Shown here: positions 26,074 through 55,079 of the stretch, piece after piece
How positions within the stretch are numbered: the stretch's first letter is position 1
Layout: each line of letters begins with the position of its first letter
From: Albidovulum sediminicola
GTDB taxonomy: Bacteria > Pseudomonadota > Alphaproteobacteria > Rhodobacterales > Rhodobacteraceae
Assembly (NCBI RefSeq): GCF_025751575.1
Contig: NZ_JAOWLA010000003.1
Location: 62,001-126,000 of the forward strand
DNA: 64,000 nt
Direction: 5' to 3'
Position numbers and translations under genes: made by a program
Notes under the pieces: generated by a model
What the model saw: only the letters and a program-made list of their open reading frames with translations
What the model was told of the DNA's origin: nothing
Databases searched by the model: none

Positions 26074-26717
26074 TTGCGCGCGCCGAAGATGGCGGAGCCG
26101 ACGCGGACATGGGTGGCACCAGCCGCAATCGCGGCCTCGAAATCGCCGCTCATGCCCATCGACAGGCCGGTAAGCCCGTTGCGTTCCGCGATCTGCGCCA
26201 GCATCGCGAAATGCGGGCGGCTGTCGCCCTCCTCCGGCGGGATGCACATCACGCCCGCCAGCGGCAGGCCAAGCGCCCGGCAGTCGCGGATGAAGCCGTC
26301 GGTGTCCGAGGGCATCACGCCCGCCTTCTGCGGCTCTTCCCCCGTATTGACCTGTACGAAAAGCGCCGGGCAGCTTCCCCGCGCCTCGGCAAGGCGTGCC
26401 AGCTTTTCAGCAAGCGAGGGGCGGTCAAGCGTGTGGATCGCGTCGAACAGATCGACCGCGACCTTGGCCTTGTTGGTCTGCAAGGGGCCGATCATGTGCA
26501 GCTCGACCGGTCCGAAGCGATCGCGCAGCGCCGGCCATTTGCCAGTGGCCTCCTGCACGTAGTTTTCACCGAAGACCCGGTGCCCGGCCTCCAGCACCGC
26601 CTCGACCCGGTCGAGCGGCTGGACCTTCGACACGGCGATGAGGGTCACGGAGCCCTCAGGCCGGCCCGCCGCCTTCTCTGCCGCCGCGATCCGGCTCCGG
26701 ATCTCAGTCAGTGACAT
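26064..26717 (-). CDS. YggS-family pyridoxal-phosphate homeostasis protein
   Basis: This 217-residue TIM-barrel protein binds PLP at Lys31 in LIAVSKVQPLD. It has FGENYVQEA, LHMIGPLQTNK and the C-terminal LSMGMSGDFEAAIAAGATHVRVGSAIFG, all hallmark YggS/PLPBP blocks. The start at 26717 overlaps the end of the TPR-sulfotransferase gene by 14 bp, so both are probably in one transcript. Confidence 0.95.
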   Translation of the reverse strand: MSLTEIRSRIAAAEKAAGRPEGSVTLIAVSKVQPLDRVEAVLEAGHRVFGENYVQEATGKWPALRDRFGPVELHMIGPLQTNKAKVAVDLFDAIHTLDRPSLAEKLARLAEARGSCPALFVQVNTGEEPQKAGVMPSDTDGFIRDCRALGLPLAGVMCIPPEEGDSRPHFAMLAQIAERNGLTGLSMGMSGDFEAAIAAGATHVRVGSAIFGARNYG

Positions 26718-28872
26718 ACCCGCCCTCGCGCAGCGCATCGAGCATGGGTTTGAGATCCTTTTCGTAGCGCTGCCAGAGCGCGACGGAGGCCTTGGAGATC
26801 GGCTGGCGGACCTGGTAGACGCTGAGCGTCTGCACCTTGCGCTTGTTCTCGTGGAAGCTGAGGCAGGCGTCCTCCCACTCCAGCCCGCAGGCCGCGATCA
26901 GCTTGCGCGTTTCCTCTTCCGGATTGGCGATCAGGTCTTCGTACTGGACCTCGTAGAACCAGTCCGGGACATGCTCGCGCCAGAAATCGACCATGTCGAC
27001 GAAGGTGCCGTAGACCTTCACCAAATCGAGCTGGTCGTAGGCGTAGGCATGCGTCTCATCCGGGAACTTGTTCTTGTAGATCGACAGAAGGTTGTCCCGG
27101 GGGTCCCTGCGCACGACCACGAACTTGGCCTTCGGCATGGCCACCTTGAGCAAGCCCAGGGCCATGTAGGACTGGATGGACTTGTCGGTGATCTGCGGCG
27201 CGGTCGGAAACCGCTCACGGATGTACTTCTCGAAATCCGTTCCGAGCGCGACGAACTCCTCATCCTTCAGCGATCCGATGGGGCGCACCTTTCCGCGCAG
27301 CATCACGAGGCTGTGCGCCGCCGCCGCCGCTTCGCCGACCTCGCCCGCCCCCTCGACCCGAGAGTGGCTGGAGATGATCTGCTCGATCAGCGTCGTTCCC
27401 GAGCGGGGCATGCCAGTCACGAAGATCGGCGCGAAATCCGTCGTGCCGGGAATGTCTGCGGCCTTCCAGTCGAAGGCCGCATAGGCCTCCTTCAGGGCCG
27501 CGACGTCGTGGTAGCGCTTGGCCATGTCATAGGGGTTGATCTTGTGCATCAGCCCGTTGGCGACGTTCAGATACTTGAAGACGCGATCGTAGTCCTTCGC
27601 ATCCTCCAAGAGCTTGGAGACGCCGAAGCCAAGGTTCATCCGATCATTGTCCGAAAGCGTGGGGTCCTCGAACTTCTGCGCCATCCGTTCGATCATCGGA
27701 TCGCCCGGCTTCGCCTTGTAGGAGGCCGAGAACATCCGGTAGTTCTCGCCGTTGTTCGGGTCGATGTCGAAGGCGTGGAGGAACAGGTCCCGGGCTTCAT
27801 CGAAGCGTCCGAGGGTTTGCAGCAACTGCGCCTTGCCGCTGACGGCGCGGGGCGAATCCGGGTCCTTGCGCAGCGCGGCGTCAAAGATCTCAAGCGCCTT
27901 GTCGTCGTCTCCGATCTTGGTTTTCGTTATAGCCCAGAAGGCAAGGGCGGGCGCATCCACCGCGTCCCCCATCATCTCGACAAGGCGGCCGGCGACAAGC
28001 TCGGCAGGTTCGTATTTTCGAAGGCGAGAGAGCGCACTCCCCAGCACACTGTAGATCTCGGGCGAGGTCTCGTTCTCAGCCGAGAGCCTTTCGAGAAGTG
28101 GCAGGACCGACTCTGCGTTCCCCGCGTCGATCTGCAGGCTGGCCAAGGTCAGAACCGCCGAGATGGACCCCGGGCAAAGGCTCACGGCCTTGCGGAAACA
28201 CTCCATGGCTTCCGGCTTGCGCTCCATGGATAGCAGAAGACCGCCCAGATGTTCCCAGGCCTCGCTGTAGTTCGGATCAAGTCGCAGCGCCGCGCGGAAA
28301 CTCGCTTCCGCCCCCATCCTGTTGCCTTGCAGCGCTTGCGCGGCGGCGAGGATGTTGTGGGCGATGGCGGATTTCGGAAACTGCCGCAACATCTGGGAGG
28401 CAAGCTTCTCGGCCTCAACCGGCCGCTTCGCTTCGATCAGGTCGACCAGAGACTGCATCTGCGCGCGATTCATGCCCCCCGTCTCGGGGCGCGACCGGCG
28501 CCGCCGCGCGCCGAAGCGGTCTTGCAGTTGAACGCGGGTGGCCGGGTCGATCGGCGCGTCTTTCAGCGCCTTGAGGAATTCCTTCTCGGCTTCCACCGTC
28601 CCGCCGAGGGCGATCGCGTCGGCCAGCGCCATCCAGACGGCCCGCTCCTTGGGGCGAAGGGTGGTCGCCTTGCGCAGGTGCAGGATGGCGCGCGACGCCT
28701 TGTCGGTGTCGCACAGGATGCGGCCGATCTGGAAATGCACCTCGGCGACATTTGGGTTGGTCTTCAGGATGCGGCCATAGGTGTGGAGCGCGGCCTCATA
28801 GGCCTTCTCCGACTGCTGTTTCATCGCGCGGGCGTAGGTCGATTGAATTTGGTCGGCGGTCAGCACGGACAT
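26704..28872 (-). CDS. TPR-repeat sulfotransferase
   Basis: This 722-residue protein has many TPR repeats in the first 420 residues (for example AYEAALHTYGRILKTNPNVAEVHF and GAEASFRAALRLDPNYSEAWEHLG). A sulfotransferase domain follows, with the PAPS-binding loop VTGMPRSGTTLIEQIISSH and the 3-prime phosphate motif VVRRDPRDNLLSIYKNK. Such TPR-sulfotransferases are common in Rhodobacterales and their substrates are mostly unknown. No signal peptide is present. The gene is cotranscribed with yggS. Confidence 0.92.
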   Translation of the reverse strand: MSVLTADQIQSTYARAMKQQSEKAYEAALHTYGRILKTNPNVAEVHFQIGRILCDTDKASRAILHLRKATTLRPKERAVWMALADAIALGGTVEAEKEFLKALKDAPIDPATRVQLQDRFGARRRRSRPETGGMNRAQMQSLVDLIEAKRPVEAEKLASQMLRQFPKSAIAHNILAAAQALQGNRMGAEASFRAALRLDPNYSEAWEHLGGLLLSMERKPEAMECFRKAVSLCPGSISAVLTLASLQIDAGNAESVLPLLERLSAENETSPEIYSVLGSALSRLRKYEPAELVAGRLVEMMGDAVDAPALAFWAITKTKIGDDDKALEIFDAALRKDPDSPRAVSGKAQLLQTLGRFDEARDLFLHAFDIDPNNGENYRMFSASYKAKPGDPMIERMAQKFEDPTLSDNDRMNLGFGVSKLLEDAKDYDRVFKYLNVANGLMHKINPYDMAKRYHDVAALKEAYAAFDWKAADIPGTTDFAPIFVTGMPRSGTTLIEQIISSHSRVEGAGEVGEAAAAAHSLVMLRGKVRPIGSLKDEEFVALGTDFEKYIRERFPTAPQITDKSIQSYMALGLLKVAMPKAKFVVVRRDPRDNLLSIYKNKFPDETHAYAYDQLDLVKVYGTFVDMVDFWREHVPDWFYEVQYEDLIANPEEETRKLIAACGLEWEDACLSFHENKRKVQTLSVYQVRQPISKASVALWQRYEKDLKPMLDALREGGYVTD

Positions 28873-28947
28873 GGAACGATCTTGCTATTGGGTTTTCTCG
28901 GCGGAACTTACCGTCATGGCGGCGCCAAGTCGAGTTGAGCCGGGGCA

Positions 28948-43668: not shown

Positions 43669-45774
43669 ATGGCGTTCAAGCTTCGAGAGGTCAAAGACGC
43701 GAAAAAGACATTTGGCGCCGTGGCGGCCGAAATCGACCCCTACGAGAACTGGGAAAAGGCGACCGTGCCTGCGCACGAAAAAGAACCCGACAAGCGGCGC
43801 TGGCAGCCGGTCTATCTGCAGTTGGAAGGCGATCCCCGGATCTCGGCGAGGAAGCTGAGGGAGGCAGCGCGGAAACAGGGGCAAATCTTCCGCATTGGCC
43901 TCTTCGAGGATTCGATCCTCTCCTGGGTCGCAAGTCTGGAACCCTGCGATCCGGTCCCGGAAGAATATCTGCGCCTTTTCGCCTTCCGGCCGGAGACGGA
44001 TGCCTACGTCCCGCTGAGTGAAGGCTCCACCCAGCTTTACTCGGTGCTGCATGTCGGCCCGGCTATTCCCATGGCGTTCGTCGAAAAGTTCATCGGCTGG
44101 CCTTCCTCCTATCAGGCGCGCGGAAACCGCCGGGGGGATGGCGTCGTGACCGCGGTCATCGACGACTTCATCGGATTCGCCAACACGAGCTTCAGAAGCG
44201 GCGAAAGCGAATCGCGGTTCCACTGGTTCTGGGCCCAGGGGCAGCCGATCGTGGGCGAGAGCAGCAGTCCCGTCGAGATCGGGACAATCTGGGGCAAGGG
44301 CGATATGGACCGGATGCTTTCGCCGGGCCTGACCGAGCCCGAGATCTACGCAAAGTACTACCCCGACGGGATCAGATCGATCGGCCGCACGCCCGAGCCC
44401 ATGGGGGCGAACGACATCCGCGATCCCGCCCTTGCACGGCCCTTCGACTTTCTGGCCAGCCACGGGACCCACGTCGCCGAGATCGCAGCCGGTTACCCCA
44501 TGGAGGACGAGCGCCGCGATCAGCCCATCATTGGCGTGCAACTGCCAAGGCTGGCCACACAGGAAACCTGGGGGGCACGCCTGGATGTCTTCATCCTGAT
44601 GGCCGTTCAGCGCATCCTGGACTGGGCCGACCGGTGGACCGAAGGTGGCAAGACAGTCCGGGCGCCGGTGGTGATCAACATCAGCTACGGCATCCTGGCC
44701 GGACCGAAGGACGGGACGGGGTTCTTGGAAGCCGAGATCGCCCGCCTTGTTAGGTTGCGCAACGCCGGTGGCAAGGGCATTCCGACCGCCGTCGTGTTTC
44801 CGGCGGGCAACGGATACCGGGCCGATTGCCACGCAGAGAAGTGGTTGCCCCCCGGCAAGACCGCTCGGGTTTCCCTGCGCGTCCAGCCCGAGGACCTGTC
44901 CGCGACCTTCGTGGAGATCTGGCTCGAACAGCAGGAGCCCGCGCGCTTCACGCTCACGCTGCCGAACGGCGAAGTGCTTGCGGCGGATCTGACGGGCGCC
45001 GCGATCTGGGACGTGACCGAGGACGGACCGCCCCCGCGGATCGTCGGGCGGGTCTATGACACGGATCTTCCAAACGGGCGGCGCCGAGTTGTCCTCGCCC
45101 TTGGACCGACGCTGGACCACGAAACGCCCGACATCGTCGCGCCGGCCGGGGAATACGGCCTCATGATCACCAACACGTCCAAACGCCGGCAGTTCGTCAC
45201 GATCGGCGTCCAGCGCGACGACACGCCAAGCGCCTTCCCGGCCTACGGCCGGCAGGCCTATCTCGATCATGAGGGCGTGGGCGCCTACGACCCCGCCACG
45301 GCCGACTGGACGCTGCCCGGAACGGGGCCGGTGACACGGCAGCGAACGATTTCCGCCTATGCTACGTCGGGTGAGCAGAACTTCATCGTCGTGGGCGCGG
45401 CGATCGGCGCAGGGGCCCCGCCATGGGCCGCGCTTTATGCGGGCGCGGGGGTGGCCGACACACTGCCGTCGCGTCCGCGCCAGACGCCGGATATCGGGGC
45501 GATTTCGGAAGAAGGCTGGGCCCATCCCGGGGTGCTTGCGACAGGAACCTATTCCGGGTCTTCGGCTCTCTTCCAGGGCAGCAGCGCCGCAGCGCCCCAG
45601 GTCACGCGTGCGATCGTCCGGCAGTTCGGCCAGATGAAGAGCGGAACGGATGTCGACGTTAGAGCCTTGCTACGGGGGGGCTCGCACCATGCGAAGCCCG
45701 ATCTGCAGTTGGGGCGGGGGACGCTGGCGTTCGATTGGCCCGGTCAGAAGATCGCGCGGCGCCGAACGTGCTAG
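43669..45774 (+). CDS. S8 serine peptidase (subtilase) without signal peptide
   Basis: This 701-residue protein has a subtilase domain with Asp165 or Asp166 in VVTAVIDDF, His265 in SHGTHVAEIAAG, oxyanion Asn381 in FPAGNG and Ser639 in QGSSAAAPQV, so the triad is intact. About 120 residues come before it and there is a large insert (about residues 390-580) between the Asn and the Ser with a beta-rich, barrel-like look (FTLTLPNGEVLAADL). No signal peptide is visible at MAFKLREVKD, so it probably acts inside the cell or is exported in another way. The stop is 70 bp from the convergent Slam-like gene. Confidence 0.88.
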   Translation: MAFKLREVKDAKKTFGAVAAEIDPYENWEKATVPAHEKEPDKRRWQPVYLQLEGDPRISARKLREAARKQGQIFRIGLFEDSILSWVASLEPCDPVPEEYLRLFAFRPETDAYVPLSEGSTQLYSVLHVGPAIPMAFVEKFIGWPSSYQARGNRRGDGVVTAVIDDFIGFANTSFRSGESESRFHWFWAQGQPIVGESSSPVEIGTIWGKGDMDRMLSPGLTEPEIYAKYYPDGIRSIGRTPEPMGANDIRDPALARPFDFLASHGTHVAEIAAGYPMEDERRDQPIIGVQLPRLATQETWGARLDVFILMAVQRILDWADRWTEGGKTVRAPVVINISYGILAGPKDGTGFLEAEIARLVRLRNAGGKGIPTAVVFPAGNGYRADCHAEKWLPPGKTARVSLRVQPEDLSATFVEIWLEQQEPARFTLTLPNGEVLAADLTGAAIWDVTEDGPPPRIVGRVYDTDLPNGRRRVVLALGPTLDHETPDIVAPAGEYGLMITNTSKRRQFVTIGVQRDDTPSAFPAYGRQAYLDHEGVGAYDPATADWTLPGTGPVTRQRTISAYATSGEQNFIVVGAAIGAGAPPWAALYAGAGVADTLPSRPRQTPDIGAISEEGWAHPGVLATGTYSGSSALFQGSSAAAPQVTRAIVRQFGQMKSGTDVDVRALLRGGSHHAKPDLQLGRGTLAFDWPGQKIARRRTC

Positions 45775-45844: not shown

Positions 45845-47137
45845 TCAGAACCGCTGACTGAGCGAGATGCCGAAGTCGAGCTTGTCGAAGTCGTAGAACT
45901 CGACATTCGACTTCGACTGGGTGTAGGCCACCGAGAACTCGGGCACGAAGCGCCCGAACCTCAGCTTGGAATGGCGCAGTGACAGGCCCGCCGTGGTCTT
46001 GCGGTCGTGCCGGGGTACCCCGAAAACCGGAAAGTCACCCTCGTAGCGCGCGTCCGTGTATCCGAGCGAAAAGGCGGTGGACAGGCCGCCCGTCCAGCTT
46101 TTCTCCAACCCGAGCTTCAGGCCGATGTCGCGGTGATTGAGATGCGCGCGCCCGGTCCGTTCGATCTTGAACGGCACCCCTGCGGTCACGGCGAGCTTCG
46201 GCGAGACGGTCCAGCGCATCGTGGCCGAGCCCTCCAGCAGGTGGCCATCAAGGAAATCCTGTCCGGGGTAGTCCTGCTTGAAGTAGCTGAGCCCGCCGCC
46301 GACCTGCAACCCGTCGCGCAGCAGGTACTCTCCGGCGGCCGCAAGGCCAAGGCGCTTGCGGTATCCATCGCCGTTGCGCCAAGTGTAGTCGGCCTGCGGT
46401 CCGAAGCTCAGCCGATGGCGCGCGCCATGCGTGGAAAAGTCCAGGCGTGTGGCCAGAACGGTTTCGTCCGGGATCAGGTCGGTGTCGTAGCGCAGGACAT
46501 CGAGGCTGCCGAACAGGGTCGCCTCGGTCCTCGGCGACAACCGCCAGCGGTTCCACGCCGTCGCGCCGATCGAAACCCCGATCGCGCGCGTCGCGCGCGA
46601 AGCTGGGTCGATGACGAAGGGAAGGCCGCCGATGTCCACGGTCTCGGTCTCGGTCCCGCCGTTCGCGTTGGACGAGGGCAGGATCGCGAAGCGCGTGGTG
46701 ATGCCGCGCTTCTTCGCGCGCCCCTGGGTCGCAAGGAAACCCTGCAACTGGGCGCGCAGCGCCGGGTCCTGGGTCGTCGCCAGAAGCGTTTCGGCGTGAA
46801 AGAGCGCGCCCTCCGTCTGACCTGTCGCCGCCAGCAGCACGGCCAGTTCGCGGCGGGCCGGCTCGAAGTCGGGGGCCACGTCCAGGATGTCGCGCAGGAG
46901 CTTCGCCGCCTTGTCGGGATAGCCCTCGCGGATGAGGATCAGCGCCTCCAGAAAGGCGAAATGCAGCGCGGCGTCCCGCCGCCCGCCGACCTGGGCGAGC
47001 AGCAGCTTGTGTGCCTCTTCGTAGTCGCCTGCGGCCACAAGCGGATAGACCCCCTGCCCCGAGGCAGGAGAGGTAAGGAGCGCGAGCGCCATCGCGGCAC
47101 CGGCAACGCCCCTGCGAATGGAGCTAAGAATGGACAT
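45845..47137 (-). CDS. Slam-like surface lipoprotein assembly modifier (DUF560)
   Basis: This 430-residue protein has a signal peptide (MSILSSIRRGVAGAAMALAL, cleavage near PASG), a TPR-like helical region (about residues 30-150, with YEEAHKLLLAQVGG and ARRELAVLLAATGQTEGA), and a C-terminal beta barrel of about 14 strands ending SNVEFYDFDKLDFGISLSQRF (read in pieces), with terminal Phe. This is the Slam layout: N-terminal TPRs and a C-terminal DUF560 barrel that moves lipoproteins to the cell surface. The two lipoproteins just upstream are its likely substrates. It follows the second lipoprotein after 167 bp with hairpins between. Confidence 0.85.
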   Translation of the reverse strand: MSILSSIRRGVAGAAMALALLTSPASGQGVYPLVAAGDYEEAHKLLLAQVGGRRDAALHFAFLEALILIREGYPDKAAKLLRDILDVAPDFEPARRELAVLLAATGQTEGALFHAETLLATTQDPALRAQLQGFLATQGRAKKRGITTRFAILPSSNANGGTETETVDIGGLPFVIDPASRATRAIGVSIGATAWNRWRLSPRTEATLFGSLDVLRYDTDLIPDETVLATRLDFSTHGARHRLSFGPQADYTWRNGDGYRKRLGLAAAGEYLLRDGLQVGGGLSYFKQDYPGQDFLDGHLLEGSATMRWTVSPKLAVTAGVPFKIERTGRAHLNHRDIGLKLGLEKSWTGGLSTAFSLGYTDARYEGDFPVFGVPRHDRKTTAGLSLRHSKLRFGRFVPEFSVAYTQSKSNVEFYDFDKLDFGISLSQRF

Positions 47138-47217
47138 TGTCTTCCCCAAGCCTTGATGTAACGGACCGCGGTTTCCCGGCCGGCCCCTGTTCCCAAGCCG
47201 ATTGTCCGACAGGTTGT

Positions 47218-47270
47218 GCGCGGGCGCGGCTTGGGTCACGCCCGCGCCGGGAATGGATCCTGGATACCGG
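47218..47270. other. Two inverted repeats between lipoprotein 1 and the Slam gene
   Basis: A 9-bp perfect stem (GCGCGGGCG with CGCCCGCGC, 47218-47247) and a 7-bp stem GGATACC with GGTATCC (47252-47267) lie in the 167-bp gap before the Slam start. They could form transcript hairpins that weaken read-through to slam. No T tract follows, so they are not clear terminators. Confidence 0.4.
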
Positions 47271-47304
47271 GGTATCCGGGACATCCGCCCCCGAACCGAT
47301 GGGC

Positions 47305-48261
47305 TCAGTTGCCCCAGAAGAACCCGACGCCAGAGAACGGATCCGTCCCGGTGCCGTCGGCGCCCGTGATCGTCAATGTTCCCGCCACCTCTTCGGCATT
47401 CGGCCCGTAGAACCGCCCGCTATAGGTGCCGGAGGTGTCCGCCGAGAGGTCGAGCGAGGTCCTGAGATCGGCATCCGGCGTCAGCGTGCCGTCGAAGCTG
47501 TTGCCGACGATGTCGGTCTCATCCATCGAAATACTGCCCAGGGTGGGGTCGAAGGACGACCCGCCCGCCGGGCGCGTCTCGATGTTGTAGATCGACCCGG
47601 CGATGGTTGCGGCCCCGAAATCCGCCGTCATCTCCATGTCGCCCCGTACCTGCGTCCGTGCCGTCGAGAAGTCGGGGTCGCCGTCGTTCGGTAAGGCCAT
47701 GATCCGTGCCCTGCCGTTGTAGGTGGCGGTGGGCAGCGATCCGATATCCGAGGGGCGCGTTTCGGTGCCGACGACGGCGAAACCGTACTGGTCGGGCTGC
47801 GTGCCGCTGTTGATGTAGTAGTCCCAGATGTCGGCGTAATGCGGATCGTTGGGATCGAGTGCTTCGTCCAGCGTGCGGCGCCAGTTCGACAGCCAAATGT
47901 CGCTTCCACCCGGCTTGGCATTATAGCCATAAATCTGCATATCGCTTGGCTCGACATAGCGGTCGCCAGGCGCGAAGGCATACTCGACCCCGTCGACAAC
48001 CATGGTGAGCTCGCCGTCGGCGTTCTTCTTCAGTTCGAACGTCGAATCGGCCAGCCCCGCGGTGTGGGTATCGAAGTTCAGGGCCATGCCAGCGACGGCC
48101 CCCTTCTGGGCGACAAGCGTCTTGCCATCCTCAAGCGCCTTTCCGGCGGTGCCGGCATCGACCGAATAGACGCTGGTGCTGCGCGAGGTCGACCCGGAAC
48201 TGCACGCGGCGAGCGCGGCCGCCATGGCGGTGCAAGTCAGGACAAGTGTTCTACGTTTCAT
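47305..48261 (-). CDS. TbpB-like surface lipoprotein 1 (Slam substrate candidate)
   Basis: This 318-residue protein has a lipoprotein signal with lipobox LAAC at AAALAACSSGS. The mature part is a beta-rich domain with a C-terminal FYGPNAEEVAGTLTITG block, the signature of the TbpB-like barrel of transferrin-binding and Slam-dependent surface lipoproteins. It is paralogous to the next gene over its full length. Its start has AAGGGG upstream. The transport or binding partner is unknown. Confidence 0.78.
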   Translation of the reverse strand: MKRRTLVLTCTAMAAALAACSSGSTSRSTSVYSVDAGTAGKALEDGKTLVAQKGAVAGMALNFDTHTAGLADSTFELKKNADGELTMVVDGVEYAFAPGDRYVEPSDMQIYGYNAKPGGSDIWLSNWRRTLDEALDPNDPHYADIWDYYINSGTQPDQYGFAVVGTETRPSDIGSLPTATYNGRARIMALPNDGDPDFSTARTQVRGDMEMTADFGAATIAGSIYNIETRPAGGSSFDPTLGSISMDETDIVGNSFDGTLTPDADLRTSLDLSADTSGTYSGRFYGPNAEEVAGTLTITGADGTGTDPFSGVGFFWGN

Positions 48262-48282
48262 TTCATTTCCCCTTTTGATGAG

Positions 48283-48296
48283 AGGCCCAAGCGGGC
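48283..48296 (-). promoter_or_regulatory. Conserved leader element upstream of lipoprotein 1
   Basis: AGGCCCAAGCGGGC (read on plus) contains GCCC-GCTT-GGGC as an inverted repeat. The same 14 bases recur at 49408 upstream of lipoprotein 2 at nearly the same distance from the start (22 and 19 bp). Confidence 0.4.
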
Positions 48297-48341
48297 AGTG
48301 ATGTTGCGACCGGAAGGTCCGGCCGCGGGACGGGTCGCAGG

Positions 48342-48354
48342 GCAGCGCAATTCT
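48342..48354 (-). promoter_or_regulatory. Conserved upstream element of lipoprotein 1
   Basis: GCAGCGCAATTCT recurs at 49468 before lipoprotein 2; the distances to the two start codons are 81 and 79 bp. This suggests a shared promoter or regulator site. Confidence 0.45.
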
Positions 48355-48444
48355 TTGGTGATGCAATCGCCGGTGGATCGGACCCGGTCACCCGAGAGGG
48401 TTTCCCAAGCCTGGGACCGTCGCCGCCCTGCGGGTCGCCCGGAC

Positions 48445-49389
48445 CTAGTTGCCGATGAACACACCGACACCGTTCACCGACAGTCCGGTCGATTCCTGCG
48501 TGCCGGTCAGCGTCAGGATGCCGGCCACCTCCTCTGCGCTCGGCCCATAGAACTTGCCGTCATAGGTGCCGGTCGTATCGGCAGAGAGGTCGAGCGAAGT
48601 CTGTAGATCGGCGTCCGGCGTCAGCGATCCCGCATAGCCGTTGCCCGAGATCGCGGTGCTGTCCATGGCCACCGACCCCGCGATGGGATCCCAGGTAGCC
48701 GCGCCCGGCGCGCGATACCCCATGTTGGTGATCTGGCCGGAAATCGTGCCCGCGCCGAAATCGGCCGTCATCTCCAGATCACCGTTCACGCGCTTCATGC
48801 TGGTGTCCCAGTCCACGTAGCCTTCGGCCTCGGTCATGTTGATCTGTGCATAACCGTTGTAGGTGGCCGTCGGCAGGCTGCCGAGCGCGTCGGGCCTGGT
48901 CTCGGTCCCGACGATGGCCTGCCCCCAGGTGTTGGGCTCGGTCCCGTCCCAGACGTAATAGCCCCAGACCTGGGCATACTGGTCTTTTGTGGTGTCGAGC
49001 GCGTCGTCGATTGAGCCCCTGTAGTAAAAGAGATTGGTGTAGTGATCGGCCTCATCGACGACATAGCCGTCGCCGCTGGGGTCCCGGTCGGCGATGGTGA
49101 AGGCGTATTCCTTGCCGTTCACCATCATCGTCAGTTCGCCATCCGCATTCTTGACCAGCTCGAACGTGGCATCGCCGATCGACGTCTCGCCGGTGGCGTG
49201 ATTGAGCCGCAAGGTCTTGGCACCGTTCGTCTGAGCCACCAGCGTCTTGCCGTCGGCAAGCGCCTGGGCGGCATTGCCGGCGTCCGCGGCGAAGATGCTT
49301 GTGCTTTTGGTGGTGGAAGACCCCGAACTGCACGCCGCAAGCGCGGCGGCCATGGCGGTCAAGCCCAGGTGTGTCATATTGCGCGTCAT
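48445..49389 (-). CDS. TbpB-like surface lipoprotein 2 (Slam substrate candidate)
   Basis: This 314-residue protein has a lipobox LAAC in AMAAALAACSSGS, then a beta-rich domain. It shares many blocks with lipoprotein 1: DGKTLVAQ, KNADGELTM, VGTETRP, LGSLPTATYNG, LEMTADFGAG and FYGPSAEEVAG. The shared blocks show a gene duplication. The start has GGGGGAG upstream. It is the likely second substrate of the Slam-like barrel. Confidence 0.78.
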   Translation of the reverse strand: MTRNMTHLGLTAMAAALAACSSGSSTTKSTSIFAADAGNAAQALADGKTLVAQTNGAKTLRLNHATGETSIGDATFELVKNADGELTMMVNGKEYAFTIADRDPSGDGYVVDEADHYTNLFYYRGSIDDALDTTKDQYAQVWGYYVWDGTEPNTWGQAIVGTETRPDALGSLPTATYNGYAQINMTEAEGYVDWDTSMKRVNGDLEMTADFGAGTISGQITNMGYRAPGAATWDPIAGSVAMDSTAISGNGYAGSLTPDADLQTSLDLSADTTGTYDGKFYGPSAEEVAGILTLTGTQESTGLSVNGVGVFIGN

Positions 49390-49407
49390 GTCGTTCTCCC
49401 CCGTGAC

Positions 49408-49421
49408 AGGCCCAAGCGGGC
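49408..49421 (-). promoter_or_regulatory. Conserved leader element upstream of lipoprotein 2
   Basis: Same 14 bases as at 48283, in the same place relative to the start codon. Confidence 0.4.
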
Positions 49422-49467
49422 GATCGCGTCCGTGACCGGCATCCCGGTCGGGGGAAGCATTTCGCAT

Positions 49468-49480
49468 GCAGCGCAATTCT
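49468..49480 (-). promoter_or_regulatory. Conserved upstream element of lipoprotein 2
   Basis: Same 13 bases as at 48342; the neighbouring bases also match in part (the second copy continues ATCGTGAATC, the first TTGGTGATGC). The element lies in the gap between the regulator stop and lipoprotein 2. Confidence 0.45.
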
Positions 49481-49519
49481 ATCGTGAATCCGTCACGGGG
49501 CCTGGTCGGGGCGCGCGCC

Positions 49520-51160
49520 CTACAGAAGATCCCGGAGCCGGGTGCGCGCCAGCAATCCGGCATTGCGCATCGCCGCGACCGGATAGGCGGGGTCGTTCAG
49601 CATCTGGTCCAGAGAGAAATCGTCCTCCAACCGGGTCAGACGCTCCAGCGCGGTCGTTGCGGCGTCAAGTGCGCCTTTCTCAGCCGAAAGCGCGGCCAGG
49701 TAGCGCAAAGGCGGCCGGAAATCGGGGGCCAGCACAGATGCCGACCGGGCCGCCTTCAGGGCCGAATCAAGGTCGCCGGTCACGACGGAGGTCAGGCAAA
49801 GACCCATGTCCCAGAAGTGGCGGATCGGAGAGCGTGCTGCCAGCCGCGAGGCGGTCAGCTGATGCTGATGCGCTTCGCGCGCGCGCCCTTCCATCAACCG
49901 CGCGATCGAGAGGCAGTCCCACGCGAAGGGATTGGCCGGGTTCAGCGCGAGGCTGCGTTCCGCAAGCTCCAACCCCGAGCTCACGTCGTTTTCCAGGAAC
50001 ACCATCGCGTTTGCCGCCGAGGCGAGCACCATCGCATTCCAGGGCTCGAGTTCGAGCGCCGTGCGCATGAGGCCCGCGAATTCGTGGAGGTCGAAGGCGT
50101 CGGGCGGGGCGTGCCGTTCCAACCGCTGGATCACCCGAAGCTGGATCTTCCAGGCGAGGAAGATGCCGCGCGGGTGCAACGCGAAGGCATGATCGAGCAG
50201 CGCGTCGGCCGAAACAAGGTCGGGCGCATTCATCGAGAAGATCTTGCGCAACGCGATGCGGCCGAGCATCGCCGCCTCGGTCGCGTGCCCCTCGCTGCCG
50301 ATCCGGATGGCCAGGGCATCCGCGACGGCCTCGATCGCGCCGCTGACCAGCGCCAGGATCTGCTCGTCATCGATCGGTGGGGCGCCTCGGACGCGCGCCA
50401 CATGCCGACCCGACCACAGGGCGCGCCGCCGTCGGCCTTCCTCGACGGAAATGCGCAGGCCCAGACTGCCCTCGCCCGCCGCATAGGCCTGGACCTGCAC
50501 GACAACCTGGCGTTCGGTGGGTGTCGCCGGGGGCGCGCGATAGACATCGGCGACCAGCGCGGAAGAGATGTAGCGCTCCAGACAGTCGATGATCAGGGAT
50601 TCGAAGAGCGATTCCGTGCCCTCCGCGCGCGTCGTGGCCACAAGGTAGACCGGGCGCGGCGCATCGTGGCGCACCACATCCGGGGTCAGGGCGTTTTGCG
50701 CTTGGCTGGCCTTGGCGCGGCGCGTCCGTTCGGTGCGCAACCAATCCTCGAACTCCGGGTCGCGCACATCCATGCCTTCCAGGAACTCGGCTCCTGTCCC
50801 AGGGTTCGCATCGTGGATGTTGACCCGCCCCGCGATCAGGCCGATCCGGCTTCTGCTGACCGAGAGCGCAGATGCCGCCGGGCCAAGTTCGCGGCGCATC
50901 TGGCTCAACGCCTGGCGCAGGCTCGCGGTCGCTTGGTCGCGGCCACGATCGCTCCACAGTTTGTCCTGAACCCAGGCGCGGGTATGTTCCAGGTTCGGCT
51001 GGCTGGCGAGAAGGGCGAGCAATGCGCAGGCCTTGGCGCTTCGCGGAGTCAGTTGCTGCCCTTCTCGCGTTTCGACGCGAAAGGGGCCGAACAAATGGAT
51101 CTCAAGAATTTCGCCGTCCGCGTCTTTGCTCAACCCAAGCCTCTCAAGCAAGAGCGTCAC
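49520..51160 (-). CDS. SARP-like transcriptional regulator with TPR region
   Basis: This 546-residue protein has an N-terminal winged helix of the OmpR/SARP kind (residues about 20-110, IHLFGPFRVET, ACALLALLASQPNLEHTRAWVQDKLWSDR) without a receiver domain. A central part (about 165-290) has VYLVATTRAEGTESLF and resembles regions found between a winged helix and TPRs in CadC- or cyclase-like regulators. The C-terminal half is made of TPR-like helices. It lies directly upstream of the two lipoproteins in the same direction and divergent from the PAP2 gene, so it may control both. Start GTG at 51160 has a weak ribosome-binding site; TTG at 51133 has GAGAGG upstream. Confidence 0.8.
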   Translation of the reverse strand: MTLLLERLGLSKDADGEILEIHLFGPFRVETREGQQLTPRSAKACALLALLASQPNLEHTRAWVQDKLWSDRGRDQATASLRQALSQMRRELGPAASALSVSRSRIGLIAGRVNIHDANPGTGAEFLEGMDVRDPEFEDWLRTERTRRAKASQAQNALTPDVVRHDAPRPVYLVATTRAEGTESLFESLIIDCLERYISSALVADVYRAPPATPTERQVVVQVQAYAAGEGSLGLRISVEEGRRRRALWSGRHVARVRGAPPIDDEQILALVSGAIEAVADALAIRIGSEGHATEAAMLGRIALRKIFSMNAPDLVSADALLDHAFALHPRGIFLAWKIQLRVIQRLERHAPPDAFDLHEFAGLMRTALELEPWNAMVLASAANAMVFLENDVSSGLELAERSLALNPANPFAWDCLSIARLMEGRAREAHQHQLTASRLAARSPIRHFWDMGLCLTSVVTGDLDSALKAARSASVLAPDFRPPLRYLAALSAEKGALDAATTALERLTRLEDDFSLDQMLNDPAYPVAAMRNAGLLARTRLRDLL

Positions 51161-51289: not shown

Positions 51290-52393
51290 ATGAGCGAGTT
51301 TGGCAGATCAGGGCGTTCCGGGCGCTCCGGCCGTTCGGGAAGATCGGGAAGATCCGGGCGCTCCGGTGGAACGGGGTCGGACGAGCGCTTCGATCATGCG
51401 GGGGGTGAGGCCTCTCCGATCTTGCAGGCGGCACTGACTGCGACGCATGACGGTATCTCAGGCCATTGGAAGGCCCCCAAAGCGCCCTGGGCGAACCCCG
51501 ATCTGGGAACGGATGACGCAGATATTTCCTATCTGCGTTCTTCGACCCGCGCCTTGATGCTGGATCATGAACTGCACTCATCGATTCTGGTTGGCGGCCA
51601 CCTGGGTCAGGCCAAGGTCGTCGCCAAGACTCCGTCGTCACGTCTGCTTTTGACGATCAACCGGCCGAGCGTGTCGGATTTCACGACCCAGATGGACTGG
51701 TTGCGCGCCTACGCGGACTTGCGGGACGACCGTTTGTCCGAGATCCATGTGCAGATGGAGGACATCCTGTCCTTCTTTGGCGCGATCGCGTTTCTGGACG
51801 GAGACCGCCGTCGCCACACACTCGAATTTCTGGAAGCGGTCGTCCGTTTTGCGATCCATGTCGAGATGAAGGTGAAACATCTGTGCCGTTCCAAGCGGCC
51901 TGTCGACTACTCGGCCCAGTTGCAGCCCGTGATCCAGACGCCTGATCATTCCAGCTTTCCCAGCGGGCATTCGACCGAGGCCTTCGCCGTCGCGACGGTG
52001 TTGCACCGCCTGATGCCCGCGACGGACCCGAAAGCGGCAGAGAACGGCCCGAAGAAAGGTGTGGGTGACCGTGCGCAGCTCTTCCGGCTCGCGCATCGGA
52101 TCGCGTCGAACCGCACGGTCGCCGGCGTCCATTTTCCCGCCGATTCAGCCGCCGGCGCGCTGCTCGGATGCGCGATCGGAGAGCATGTTTTCGGCATGGC
52201 CACCGGCGCCCGACCCAAGCGGGCCGTCACCTTCATGGTCGGGGACAAGGCAATGTTCAAGCCGACCGAAGATTTCAGCCTCGACTGGCTCAAAAGGCAA
52301 TTGCCGCCGGATCGCCGCCTCCCGCCACCGCCCGCTTCGTCGCAGTCTATATTGCAGCGATTCTGGGCCCTTTGCGAAGCCGAGTGGGCCTAG
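51290..52393 (+). CDS. Soluble PAP2/vanadium haloperoxidase-type enzyme with an N-terminal GRS repeat
   Basis: This 367-residue protein has all phosphate- or vanadate-binding motifs of the PAP2 superfamily: KHLCRSKRP (K-x6-RP), SFPSGHST, and SNRTVAGVHFPAD (R-x5-H-x3-D). It has no signal peptide and no obvious membrane helices, so it is closer to soluble vanadium-dependent haloperoxidases than to membrane lipid phosphatases; which reaction it does is unknown. Residues 5-27 are seven tandem GRS units. The codons vary between units (Arg: AGA, CGT, CGC; Ser: TCA, TCC, TCG), so the repeat is kept at the protein level. The ATG at 51290 has GGGAGGGG upstream. Confidence 0.83.
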   Translation: MSEFGRSGRSGRSGRSGRSGRSGRSGGTGSDERFDHAGGEASPILQAALTATHDGISGHWKAPKAPWANPDLGTDDADISYLRSSTRALMLDHELHSSILVGGHLGQAKVVAKTPSSRLLLTINRPSVSDFTTQMDWLRAYADLRDDRLSEIHVQMEDILSFFGAIAFLDGDRRRHTLEFLEAVVRFAIHVEMKVKHLCRSKRPVDYSAQLQPVIQTPDHSSFPSGHSTEAFAVATVLHRLMPATDPKAAENGPKKGVGDRAQLFRLAHRIASNRTVAGVHFPADSAAGALLGCAIGEHVFGMATGARPKRAVTFMVGDKAMFKPTEDFSLDWLKRQLPPDRRLPPPPASSQSILQRFWALCEAEWA

Positions 52394-52606: not shown

Positions 52607-54235
52607 ATGCTGACCAGGGTCCCCCTCGCCGCCGCCGCCCTTCTTGCCGCATGGCCCGCCTGGGCGCGCGATGTGGCTCTTGTGATCGGGAACGAGAATT
52701 ACCGCCGCGCGCCCGATATCTCCTCTGCCGAGGATGTCGCGGACGCGGGCGCGGCGCTGGAGGCGGCCGGGTTCACGCTGCATGAGGGGCGCGATCTTGA
52801 CGCCGCGGGCCTCCGCCGCGTGCTTGCGGAGTTTCACGCCGATGCCGGGGATGCCGACCGTCTGGTGATCCTGGCGGCGGGGCATTTCGCCCATGCGGGC
52901 GCGCAGGGCTGGCTTCTGGGAACCGAGGCGGACAAACCCGCACTTGGTTCGGCCGATGCGATGGGCTTGCCGGTTGCCACGCTTCTGGCCATCGCCGCCG
53001 AACGCCCCGGCGCCGCCATCGTGCTTCTGGGGACGGAACCGCAGCCCATGGCCCTTGGCCGCAGGCTGGAGGGCGGACTTGGCGCCGAACCGGCGCCCCA
53101 GGGTGTGACGGTCATCACAGGGGACGCGGGCACGCTGGCCGAATACGTCACCGACGTTCTGACCCAGCCGGGTCAGTCACAGGCGGCCCTCGCCGCGCAG
53201 GCGGAGGGCCTGAGCGTGACGGGGTTCCTGGGCGATGGCGCCCCCTTCCTGCCGCTGCCCGATATGGCCCGGACGGAAACCGGCACCGGTGAACAGGCCG
53301 CTTGGGACGTGGTGCGCAAGCTCGACACGATCCCGGCCTACGAAGGATTCCTGCGCCAGTATCCCTCCGGCCTGCACGCCGCCGAGGCGCGCGCCGCGAT
53401 CGATGCGATCAAGGCCCAGCCGCTCTTGCAAGCCCAAAAGACCGAGGAGGCGCTGGGCCTCAGCCGTGACCAGCGGCGCGAGATCCAGCGCAACCTGAGC
53501 CTTCTGGACGTCGATCCGCGCGGGATCGACGGGCTTTTCGGCCCCGGGTCGCGCCGGGCGATCGCCGCCTGGCAGAAGGCAAACCGGATTGAGGCGACGG
53601 GATATCTGGATGCCGACCAGCTCACCCGGCTTCAGGCGCAGGCCGACCGCCGCGCGGCCGAGCTTGAGGCCGAGGCGCGCGCGCGGCAGGCCGAACTGGA
53701 ACGTCAGGACCGGCTTTACTGGGATCAGACCGGCGCGGCGGGCGACGAGGCGGGGCTGCGCGCCTATCTGAAGCGCTACCCGGACGGGCTGTTCGCCGAG
53801 CTTGCGCAAGAGCGGCTCGCAATCTTCGAGGAAGAGCGCCGCCGCGCGGCTGAGGGCGCGGACCGGCAGGCATGGGATCAGGCCGCCGCCGCCGACACCG
53901 CCGAGGCCTACCGCGACTATCTGCGCGCCTTCCCGAACGGCGTCTTCGCCGAGGACGCAAAGGCCGCGCTTGAGGCGACGGAGTCGGCCAACGCGTCGGA
54001 GGCCGAGCGCGCCCAGGCCGAAGCCGCGGAAAACGCGCTGGGGCTGAACGCCTTCTTCCGCCAGGCCATTGAGAAGCGGCTGGCGAGCCTGGGCCTGAAG
54101 CCCGGCCGCGTGGACGGAACCTTCGACGAGGACACTCGCCGCGCGATCCGCCGCTACCAGGAAGCGCGCGGCATGGAGGTCACGGGCTACCTGACCCAAG
54201 CCGCCGTGGTCCGGTTGCTGGCCGAGGGTTTGTGA
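52607..54235 (+). CDS. Caspase-like protein without catalytic Cys, with two peptidoglycan-binding domains
   Basis: This 542-residue secreted protein has a signal peptide (MLTRVPLAAAALLAAWPAWA). A caspase/metacaspase-like fold (residues about 22-170) starts RDVALVIGNENYRR and keeps the His in AAGHFAHAG, but the usual LDACR strand reads VLLGTEPQP, so the nucleophile cysteine is missing. Two PG_binding_1 domains follow, near residues 285-345 (RREIQRNLSLL, IDGLFGPGSRRAI) and 480-542 (FFRQAIEKRLASLGLKPGRVDGTF in pieces). Between them lie two repeats of WDQxxAAxxxxxYxxYLxxxPxGxF. It may be a structural cell-wall protein. Confidence 0.82.
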   Translation: MLTRVPLAAAALLAAWPAWARDVALVIGNENYRRAPDISSAEDVADAGAALEAAGFTLHEGRDLDAAGLRRVLAEFHADAGDADRLVILAAGHFAHAGAQGWLLGTEADKPALGSADAMGLPVATLLAIAAERPGAAIVLLGTEPQPMALGRRLEGGLGAEPAPQGVTVITGDAGTLAEYVTDVLTQPGQSQAALAAQAEGLSVTGFLGDGAPFLPLPDMARTETGTGEQAAWDVVRKLDTIPAYEGFLRQYPSGLHAAEARAAIDAIKAQPLLQAQKTEEALGLSRDQRREIQRNLSLLDVDPRGIDGLFGPGSRRAIAAWQKANRIEATGYLDADQLTRLQAQADRRAAELEAEARARQAELERQDRLYWDQTGAAGDEAGLRAYLKRYPDGLFAELAQERLAIFEEERRRAAEGADRQAWDQAAAADTAEAYRDYLRAFPNGVFAEDAKAALEATESANASEAERAQAEAAENALGLNAFFRQAIEKRLASLGLKPGRVDGTFDEDTRRAIRRYQEARGMEVTGYLTQAAVVRLLAEGL

Positions 54236-55004: not shown

Positions 55005-55079
55005 TGGTGGGCGCGACAGGGATCGAACCTGTGGCCACTACGATGTCAACGTAGTGCTCTACCGCTGAGCTACGCGCCC
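55005..55079 (-). tRNA. tRNA-Val (anticodon GAC)
   Basis: On the minus strand the sequence starts GGGCGCGTAGCTCAGCGG, has a CTACG/CGTAG anticodon stem with loop TTGACAT (anticodon GAC, valine), a T-arm ACAGGTTCGATCCCTGT and ends CGCGCCCA with an encoded CCA. The length is 75 nt. Confidence 0.97.

Follow-up and report, generated by a model that had tools for sequence, protein, structure and literature searches.

A conserved regulator-PAP2-subtilase cassette with lineage-specific peptide arrays, predicted to be separate from a neighbouring Slam export trio in Albidovulum sediminicola

Does a regulatory gene that directly adjoins a surface-export system serve that system, or does it belong to a different set of genes altogether? 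The question is raised by a stretch of 64,000 nucleotides of Albidovulum sediminicola (Rhodobacteraceae; contig NZ_JAOWLA010000003.1, positions 62,001 to 126,000; hereafter the window), in which four minus-strand genes in a row encode a candidate regulator with a winged helix-turn-helix (wHTH) and tetratricopeptide repeats (TPRs; hereafter REG), two paralogous lipoproteins and a Slam outer-membrane protein (Table 1). An initial annotation, made from the sequence alone, placed these open reading frames (ORFs) correctly and interpreted them as a Slam system possessing its own SARP-like regulator, and as a candidate for an undescribed system. Comparison with related genomes divides the locus differently: judged by gene content and linkage, REG, a PAP2-fold enzyme and a subtilase of family S8 form a conserved cassette that is separate from the Slam trio. 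We consider it probable that the window holds two unrelated, nested modules, namely a type 11 secretion system (T11SS) trio (49389-45845, minus strand) and the REG-PAP2-subtilase cassette.

Genomic partners of the regulator

The partner that REG keeps is the PAP2 gene. REG lies within 2.5 kb of every one of 100 PAP2 ORFs scoring over 100 bits, and a subtilase lies within the same distance of 93 of them; Slam occurs within 6 kb of a single one, that of the window itself. The seven PAP2 genes with no S8 inside 2.5 kb comprise five deep-clade loci, one locus at a contig edge (L132) and the window, whose S8 stands 5.5 kb off, beyond the trio. Among the loci fetched for REG (20 of the 21 best outside the window's genome, with about 8 kb on each side where the contig allowed), PAP2 adjoins REG in 18 and a subtilase is present too in 17; Slam is adjacent to REG in none of the 20, and lies 12-14 kb away in two (L127 and L133). 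Nor does REG stand near Slam in any of 20 Slam loci, fetched from the 23 best matches outside the window's genome, within the 8-18 kb read at each. On these counts, the first proposal that REG is the Slam system's own regulator is not supported. Within the genus, the PAP2 profile matches 5 of 22 genomes; the four other than the window's yield five loci, with REG at 5/5 and S8 at 3/5. Three of these genomes (G002, G010 and G011) carry the full cassette with no Slam match, and Slam was found in none of the four, completeness being only 84% for G010 and 87% for G011.

These PAP2 tallies leave out the two REG loci that show no PAP2 (L121 and L122), and the 100-bit threshold excludes a PAP2-like ORF at L128 (66 bits, no repeat, 3.7 kb from REG); for later PAP2 sets the threshold was lowered, L317 and L318 entering at 92. 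Eighty extra PAP2 loci were chosen mostly by rank, with five low-ranking deep-clade loci added deliberately, and the ranks left out include G164, G171:C40, G025:C942, G054, G138 and G186. In the REG set the 21st match (G193) replaces the 20th (G046; later L186), and the stretches of G040 and G193 were lengthened to include Slam-like matches on the same contig.

Both enzymes of the cassette keep their catalytic residues. PF01569 matches all 16 members of the PAP2 profile, and the K-RP / PSGH / R-H-D residues, which we take to be the PAP2 catalytic motif, occur in 91-100% of 95 PAP2 rows; compared with solved structures, the profile matches acid phosphatase, LpxE and bromoperoxidase. PF00082 matches all 12 S8 members, the D/H/S triad and the oxyanion asparagine are found in 98-100% of 94 rows, and the closest solved structures to the S8 profile are a germination-related subtilase (1e-20) and CspB (2e-17). 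NCBIfam gave sub-threshold matches only for the PAP2 and S8 of the window, and the anti-phage defence models of PADLOC-DB 2.0.0 gave no match, at E up to 1, for six window proteins, REG, PAP2 and S8 included.

For REG itself, the earlier description as SARP-like fits the layout and is not supported in its strict sense. Trans_reg_C and TPR_17 are found in the window protein only below the Pfam cut-offs (E 0.0014 each), and 18 REG proteins read at E <= 0.01 contain TPR_2 in 12 cases, Trans_reg_C in four (best 3e-12) and a cyclase domain in one, a wHTH-plus-TPR layout shared with SARP- and HilA-type regulators. The BTAD family has no match in the window REG (E up to 1) or in the 18 relatives (E up to 0.01), so REG was dropped as a strict SARP; in this, and in being tied to PAP2, it differs from SARP- and HilA-type proteins.

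The order of genes in the window is S8(+)-[Slam, cargo 1, cargo 2](-)-REG(-)-PAP2(+), with the trio between subtilase and REG. Most relatives have S8 beside PAP2. The locus nearest in the PAP2 tree (L164) and the same-genus L314, both with GRS units, read S8(+)-PAP2(-)-REG(+), and L221 has the window-like order S8(+)-REG(-)-PAP2(+) without the trio. The simplest history that we infer from these orders would be that a REG-PAP2 block was turned round and a Slam trio placed beside it.

It is worth setting out what counts against so clean a separation. Firstly, REG lies on the same strand as cargo 2, with 130 bp from the REG stop to the cargo 2 start, so that REG may also drive the trio here. The same spacing would suit a stronger claim, namely that here the Slam trio has taken REG into its service and all four genes now make up a single unit; set against the 20 Slam loci lacking REG, the attachment of REG to PAP2 in all 100 cases and the three same-genus genomes with a full cassette and no Slam, such recruitment is unlikely. 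Secondly, L122, among the best REG relatives, shows no PAP2 across the 18 kb that were read and is a genuine exception to the linkage (L121, the other REG locus lacking PAP2, is a 3.6-kb contig), and REG-like proteins occur in 120 of 248 genomes, making them commoner than the set tested for linkage. Thirdly, the insertion of the trio into an older cassette is argued from gene order among relatives rather than from an exact empty site, and five same-genus stretches keep the flank to the right of about 52590, with none matching the window to the left of it. Finally, the AlphaFold2 models were unusable, with a predicted local distance difference test score (pLDDT) of 40 for REG (single sequence) and 42 for a cargo (two rows).

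To the right of the cassette, a gene at 52607-54235, by eye a putative caspase-like and peptidoglycan-binding protein, has a DNA match in 22 of the 22 genus genomes searched, and the conserved right flank extends past a tRNA-Val at 55005-55079.

Table 1. Features of the two modules, with the basis of each assignment
Feature	Coordinates	Strand	Basis
Subtilase (S8) of the cassette	43669..45774	+	PF00082 7.1e-7; D/H/S triad intact; no signal peptide seen by eye
Slam / T11SS outer-membrane protein	45845..47137	-	430 aa; signal peptide by eye, TPRs, SlipAM barrel; start chosen from sequence
Cargo lipoprotein 1, TbpB-type barrel, LAAC lipobox	47305..48261	-	PF01298 3.4e-12; start chosen from sequence
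Cargo lipoprotein 2, paralogue, LAAC lipobox	48445..49389	-	PF01298 1.1e-11; alignment
REG, wHTH-TPR regulator of the PAP2 cassette, not Slam-specific	49520..51160	-	Linkage to PAP2; domain matches
PAP2-fold enzyme with N-terminal peptide array	51290..52393	+	PF01569 2.3e-13; catalytic motif complete; start chosen from sequence
Perfect GRS tripeptide array	51302..51367	+	7.3 copies, codons scrambled

The peptide array of the PAP2 enzyme

A perfect tandem repeat of a unit of 2-6 residues, mostly near the start and counted from at least three perfect copies of a short unit, is present in 125 of 127 REG-linked PAP2 proteins, made up of 98/100 in the main set, 12/12 loci from a class-wide search, 10/10 further REG-linked loci and 5/5 same-genus loci. 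The 12 class-search loci include one from the same family; L282, the weakest of the 12, shows three copies only. PAP2 ORFs with no REG beside them (L306-L311, weak profile matches that appear by eye to be secreted) carry the array in none of six cases. A stricter criterion, at least 18 residues and at least four copies, is passed by 88 of the 100 PAP2 proteins; among 570 other genes, called across the window and L094-L133, it is passed by one. That one control gene, L116:13338-15908, lies directly downstream of S8 and encodes an 856-aa protein that carries about 17 copies of DPV in an internal array. Further loci are of interest in their own right: the same-genus L317 and L318 have a long PAP2 ORF beside REG (841 and 770 aa of open frame) that starts with TK x10, an additional variant among the array proteins, and in genome G210 (L124) two cassettes stand side by side, one with GS units and the other with SAY.

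Measured from the closest in-frame start codon upstream, taken as a putative start, 42 of the 88 strict arrays begin at four codons and 87 within ten. A HAGG stretch immediately follows the array in many members. After collapsing rotations there are 85 distinct units, and the unit is three residues long in 91 of 125 arrays. Relative to the surrounding protein, glycine, asparagine, glutamine, histidine and serine are enriched in the arrays, and the depleted residues include leucine, proline, aspartate, isoleucine and cysteine. Across the 88 arrays, widened to include neighbouring impure copies, 2403 codon comparisons between adjacent copies gave 1682 synonymous against 13 amino-acid-changing differences, a contrast in which changes that break the run are undercounted because the arrays were selected as perfect runs. 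In 81 of 98 arrays, codon sharing between adjacent copies is lower than after the copies are shuffled (sign test 4e-11, with related arrays counted as independent), so that DNA-identical neighbours seem to be removed or avoided whilst the protein repeat is kept. Replication slippage leaving neutral, functionless low-complexity tails would suit the differences in copy number among close relatives (GNQ x19 and x12) and the likeness by eye of some arrays to higher-order DNA repeats, but such an origin is highly improbable given the excess of synonymous differences, the contrast between REG-linked and unlinked PAP2 proteins, and a unit chemistry that is specific to clades.

In a tree of 100 PAP2 cores, that chemistry tracks ancestry. 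Units of the form x-x-[Y/F] predominate in one clade (SAY, NAY, GGY, GAF and NSF, with exceptions AGI, NAL and TGW), those of the form x-x-[Q/E/D] in another (GNQ, NSQ, GHE and GYD, with the exception EAV) and GGxH units in a third, along with GGTQ and GGGI. Ordered by rising core identity, pairs sharing the same unit number 0/97 (20-30% identity), then 16/3599, 12/657, 11/132, 9/42 and 3/4 (70-80%), and the same-genus pair G320 and G1075 has TGV x14 and AGV x16 at 69% core identity. On this comparative evidence the units are lineage-specific and all copies in an array change together.

As to spread, a search with the window PAP2 finds matches at E <= 0.001 in 144 of 394 family genomes, a count that includes weak matches, perhaps to PAP2 proteins in general. 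With the PAP2-core profile, the class sample of 385 genomes gave 14 with a match (E <= 1e-15) and the phylum sample of 398 gave 34 (E <= 1e-12), both samples including genomes of the window's own family; the unlinked L306-L311 are among weak matches of another kind. From the class search 12 of 17 places were fetched, omitting those already in the set and the weakest (G457), and from the phylum search 16 of the listed places, high- and low-scoring. Outside the class, G808 and G1006 (L302 and L303) are strong matches with the full cassette, bearing arrays of SGGA and GGA.

How might such a cassette work? REG would control the PAP2 gene, and the subtilase, an intact-triad relative of the CspB type, would trim or control PAP2. 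The array itself would be a multivalent self-association tail, forming a condensate or filament, and its removal by S8 would switch a phosphatase- or haloperoxidase-type activity of PAP2. This putative role for the array is the one we favour, tentatively, and it may well prove wrong. The same genes could be read as a signalling set, in which the array is a polyprotein of identical peptides, the subtilase frees di- to hexapeptides and the TPRs of REG sense the resulting lineage-specific signal. Firmicutes have TPR regulators that bind short peptides, and such a scheme would fit copies that are near-identical in protein and not in DNA, units that diverge among lineages and change in concert, and a TPR regulator always, and an intact subtilase usually, beside PAP2. 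Against it, 16 of 125 arrays belong to cassettes without S8, many units (GS, GQ, GGA) have no obvious cleavage residue, and no export signal or transporter appears as a fixed partner in the listed neighbourhoods, which were read by eye with no dedicated search; we regard the polyprotein scheme as somewhat unlikely.

The self-association tail has its own difficulties. The 16 arrays in cassettes lacking S8 indicate that the protease is not required for array retention. No perfect array was detected in two of the 127 proteins (L182 and L238, the latter having a degenerate array), and of the first 100 a further ten do not pass the strict criterion; with 12 of 100 thus failing, impure and short arrays do exist. 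The arrays without S8 differ in composition: charged residues occur in 11/16 of them against 23/109 of the others, and Y/F/W/L/I/V/M in 1/16 against 44/109.

The Slam protein and its cargo

The three genes that remain once REG is assigned to PAP2 are, by their domain content, a type 11 secretion set of a kind already described in Rhodobacteraceae. The likeliest start of the Slam ORF (45845-47284) is the ATG at 47137, which gives the protein listed in Table 1, with a signal peptide read by eye as MSILSSIRRG...ASG, cleaved before QG. The SlipAM barrel (PF04575, DUF560) is matched at 1.1e-24 and 87.9 bits against a cut-off of 22, and a TPR (PF14559, TPR_19) at 1.2e-7 and 32.4 bits against 25, with the Slam-specific TPR model PF24575 under its cut-off (19.4 against 35.2). 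The two cargo lipoproteins, directly upstream of Slam and 52% identical by alignment, share the lipobox ...MAAALAAC and an FYGPxAEEVAG block. Both exceed the cut-offs of PF01298 TbpB_B_D (47.4 and 45.8 bits; cut-off 26) and FHBP_C (34.0 and 33.3 bits; cut-off 28.1), and both fall under the curated cut-off of 80 of the NCBIfam slam_lipo equivalog NF041636 (62.1 and 58.6) and below that of HphA_C. A profile of six cargos, the two of the window and four relatives, matches solved TbpB chains at 1e-12, and the 5' leaders of the cargo genes share, by alignment, blocks of 13 and 14 identical bases, as would be expected if a tandem duplication carried the leader along. The initial annotation's account of a TPR protein with a DUF560-type barrel and of two paralogous barrel lipoproteins is therefore borne out by profile matches above cut-offs.

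Its observation that the window lacks a TonB-dependent receptor can be carried further. The whole genome holds one SlipAM match and two TbpB_B_D matches, all inside the window, and no match to the receptor plug domain PF07715, the receptor barrel model lying outside the search; the same plug model found its targets in E. coli, Caulobacter and Bacteroides. With no plug domain in the genome, hand-over of transferrin or heme to a receptor is unlikely, and the cargos probably bind a surface ligand other than iron carriers for uptake. Synthesised with lipobox signals, they would travel to the outer membrane and be moved by Slam to the cell surface, Slam presumably recognising the C-terminal TbpB-type barrel, as is supposed from the family. 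That the trio performs ordinary T11SS export, with surface translocation predicted, is very likely.

Among 248 sampled genomes of the same family, Slam is matched in 65, at least one of which (G191) is a TPR cross-match, and TbpB_B_D in 39; within the genus, Slam is found only in the window's genome, 1 of 22. The nearest Slam relative, in G022, is 37% identical and has the order cargo-cargo-Slam (L094) with no REG adjoining, and among the 20 Slam loci fetched, L094 alone places two cargos recognised as of this family ahead of Slam. A scan of genome contigs with the single Slam sequence gave one weak relative. An apparent second Slam at 26707-28884 (160 bits against a custom Slam profile) was set aside as a TPR cross-match, PF04575 finding one Slam in the genome, and the match within the REG ORF of G191 was dismissed on the same grounds.

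Elsewhere in the family, 6 of the 20 fetched Slam loci (L099, L101, L102, L106, L107 and L112) have a lipoprotein gene (214-361 aa) and Slam adjoining a pair of genes of about 700 and 215 aa. In the three that were scanned (L102, L107 and L112) the pair encodes a histidine kinase and a LuxR-type response regulator, so some T11SS loci seem to possess a conserved regulator of their own; TbpB_B_D was matched, below its cut-off, only by the lipoprotein of L112.

Relation to described systems and possible meaning

Each part of the locus resembles something familiar and departs from it. The cassette PAP2 has the full catalytic signature of PAP2 phosphatases and vanadium haloperoxidases, and its profile matches structures of acid phosphatase, LpxE and bromoperoxidase, but it adds an N-terminal homogeneous array and a constant REG neighbour, neither of which occurs in the six related PAP2 ORFs. 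CspB activates a spore cortex hydrolase; the cassette S8, although nearest by sequence to CspB-type germination subtilases and intact in its triad, has PAP2 as its partner. TbpB is two-lobed, and the window cargos, whose C-terminal barrel is homologous to TbpB chains, differ from TbpB, LbpB and haemophilin in being about 300 aa long with one barrel match each, in a genome without a plug domain. A literature search by narrow word combinations, covering no preprints and few subscription papers, found no published description of a REG-PAP2-subtilase cassette or of such repeats, and the cassette is apparently previously undescribed. Among bacterial enzymes, we know of no other family whose members almost all start with a perfect, lineage-specific and codon-scrambled short-peptide homopolymer. 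The earlier suggestion of an undescribed system thus passes from the Slam genes, which are of a known T11SS kind, to the cassette in which REG actually resides.

For the trio, the likeness to T11SS lies in the signal peptide, TPRs and SlipAM barrel and in the neighbouring lipoproteins with TbpB-type barrels, and the difference in two paralogous tandem cargos within a genome lacking the plug domain. Cargo-Slam T11SS loci have been predicted in Rhodobacteraceae and Roseobacteriaceae (Grossman 2025, PMC12282271; for the family see also PMC5449769). The word 'regulator' is absent from the main text of that paper and of Grossman 2021 (PMC8406197). DUF1194, thymidylate synthase and glyoxalase, which are the marker genes of the described marine cluster 3 T11SS locus, are absent among the seven window genes scanned.

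A Slam protein with TbpB-barrel cargo and no plug-domain match offers a clean case of T11SS cargo that does not feed a TonB receptor. The cassette, for its part, is a natural experiment in why a protein should retain exact periodicity rather than a particular sequence. It might be a new kind of system, in which a short-peptide homopolymer borne on an enzyme acts as a lineage code, is read by the TPR regulator, by the protease or through self-assembly, and switches the enzyme, selection keeping the copies identical while the code changes in concert. We hold that view to be possible but doubtful; if true, it would amount to peptide-code signalling or self-recognition, known so far from genomes of the window's class and from two belonging to another class.

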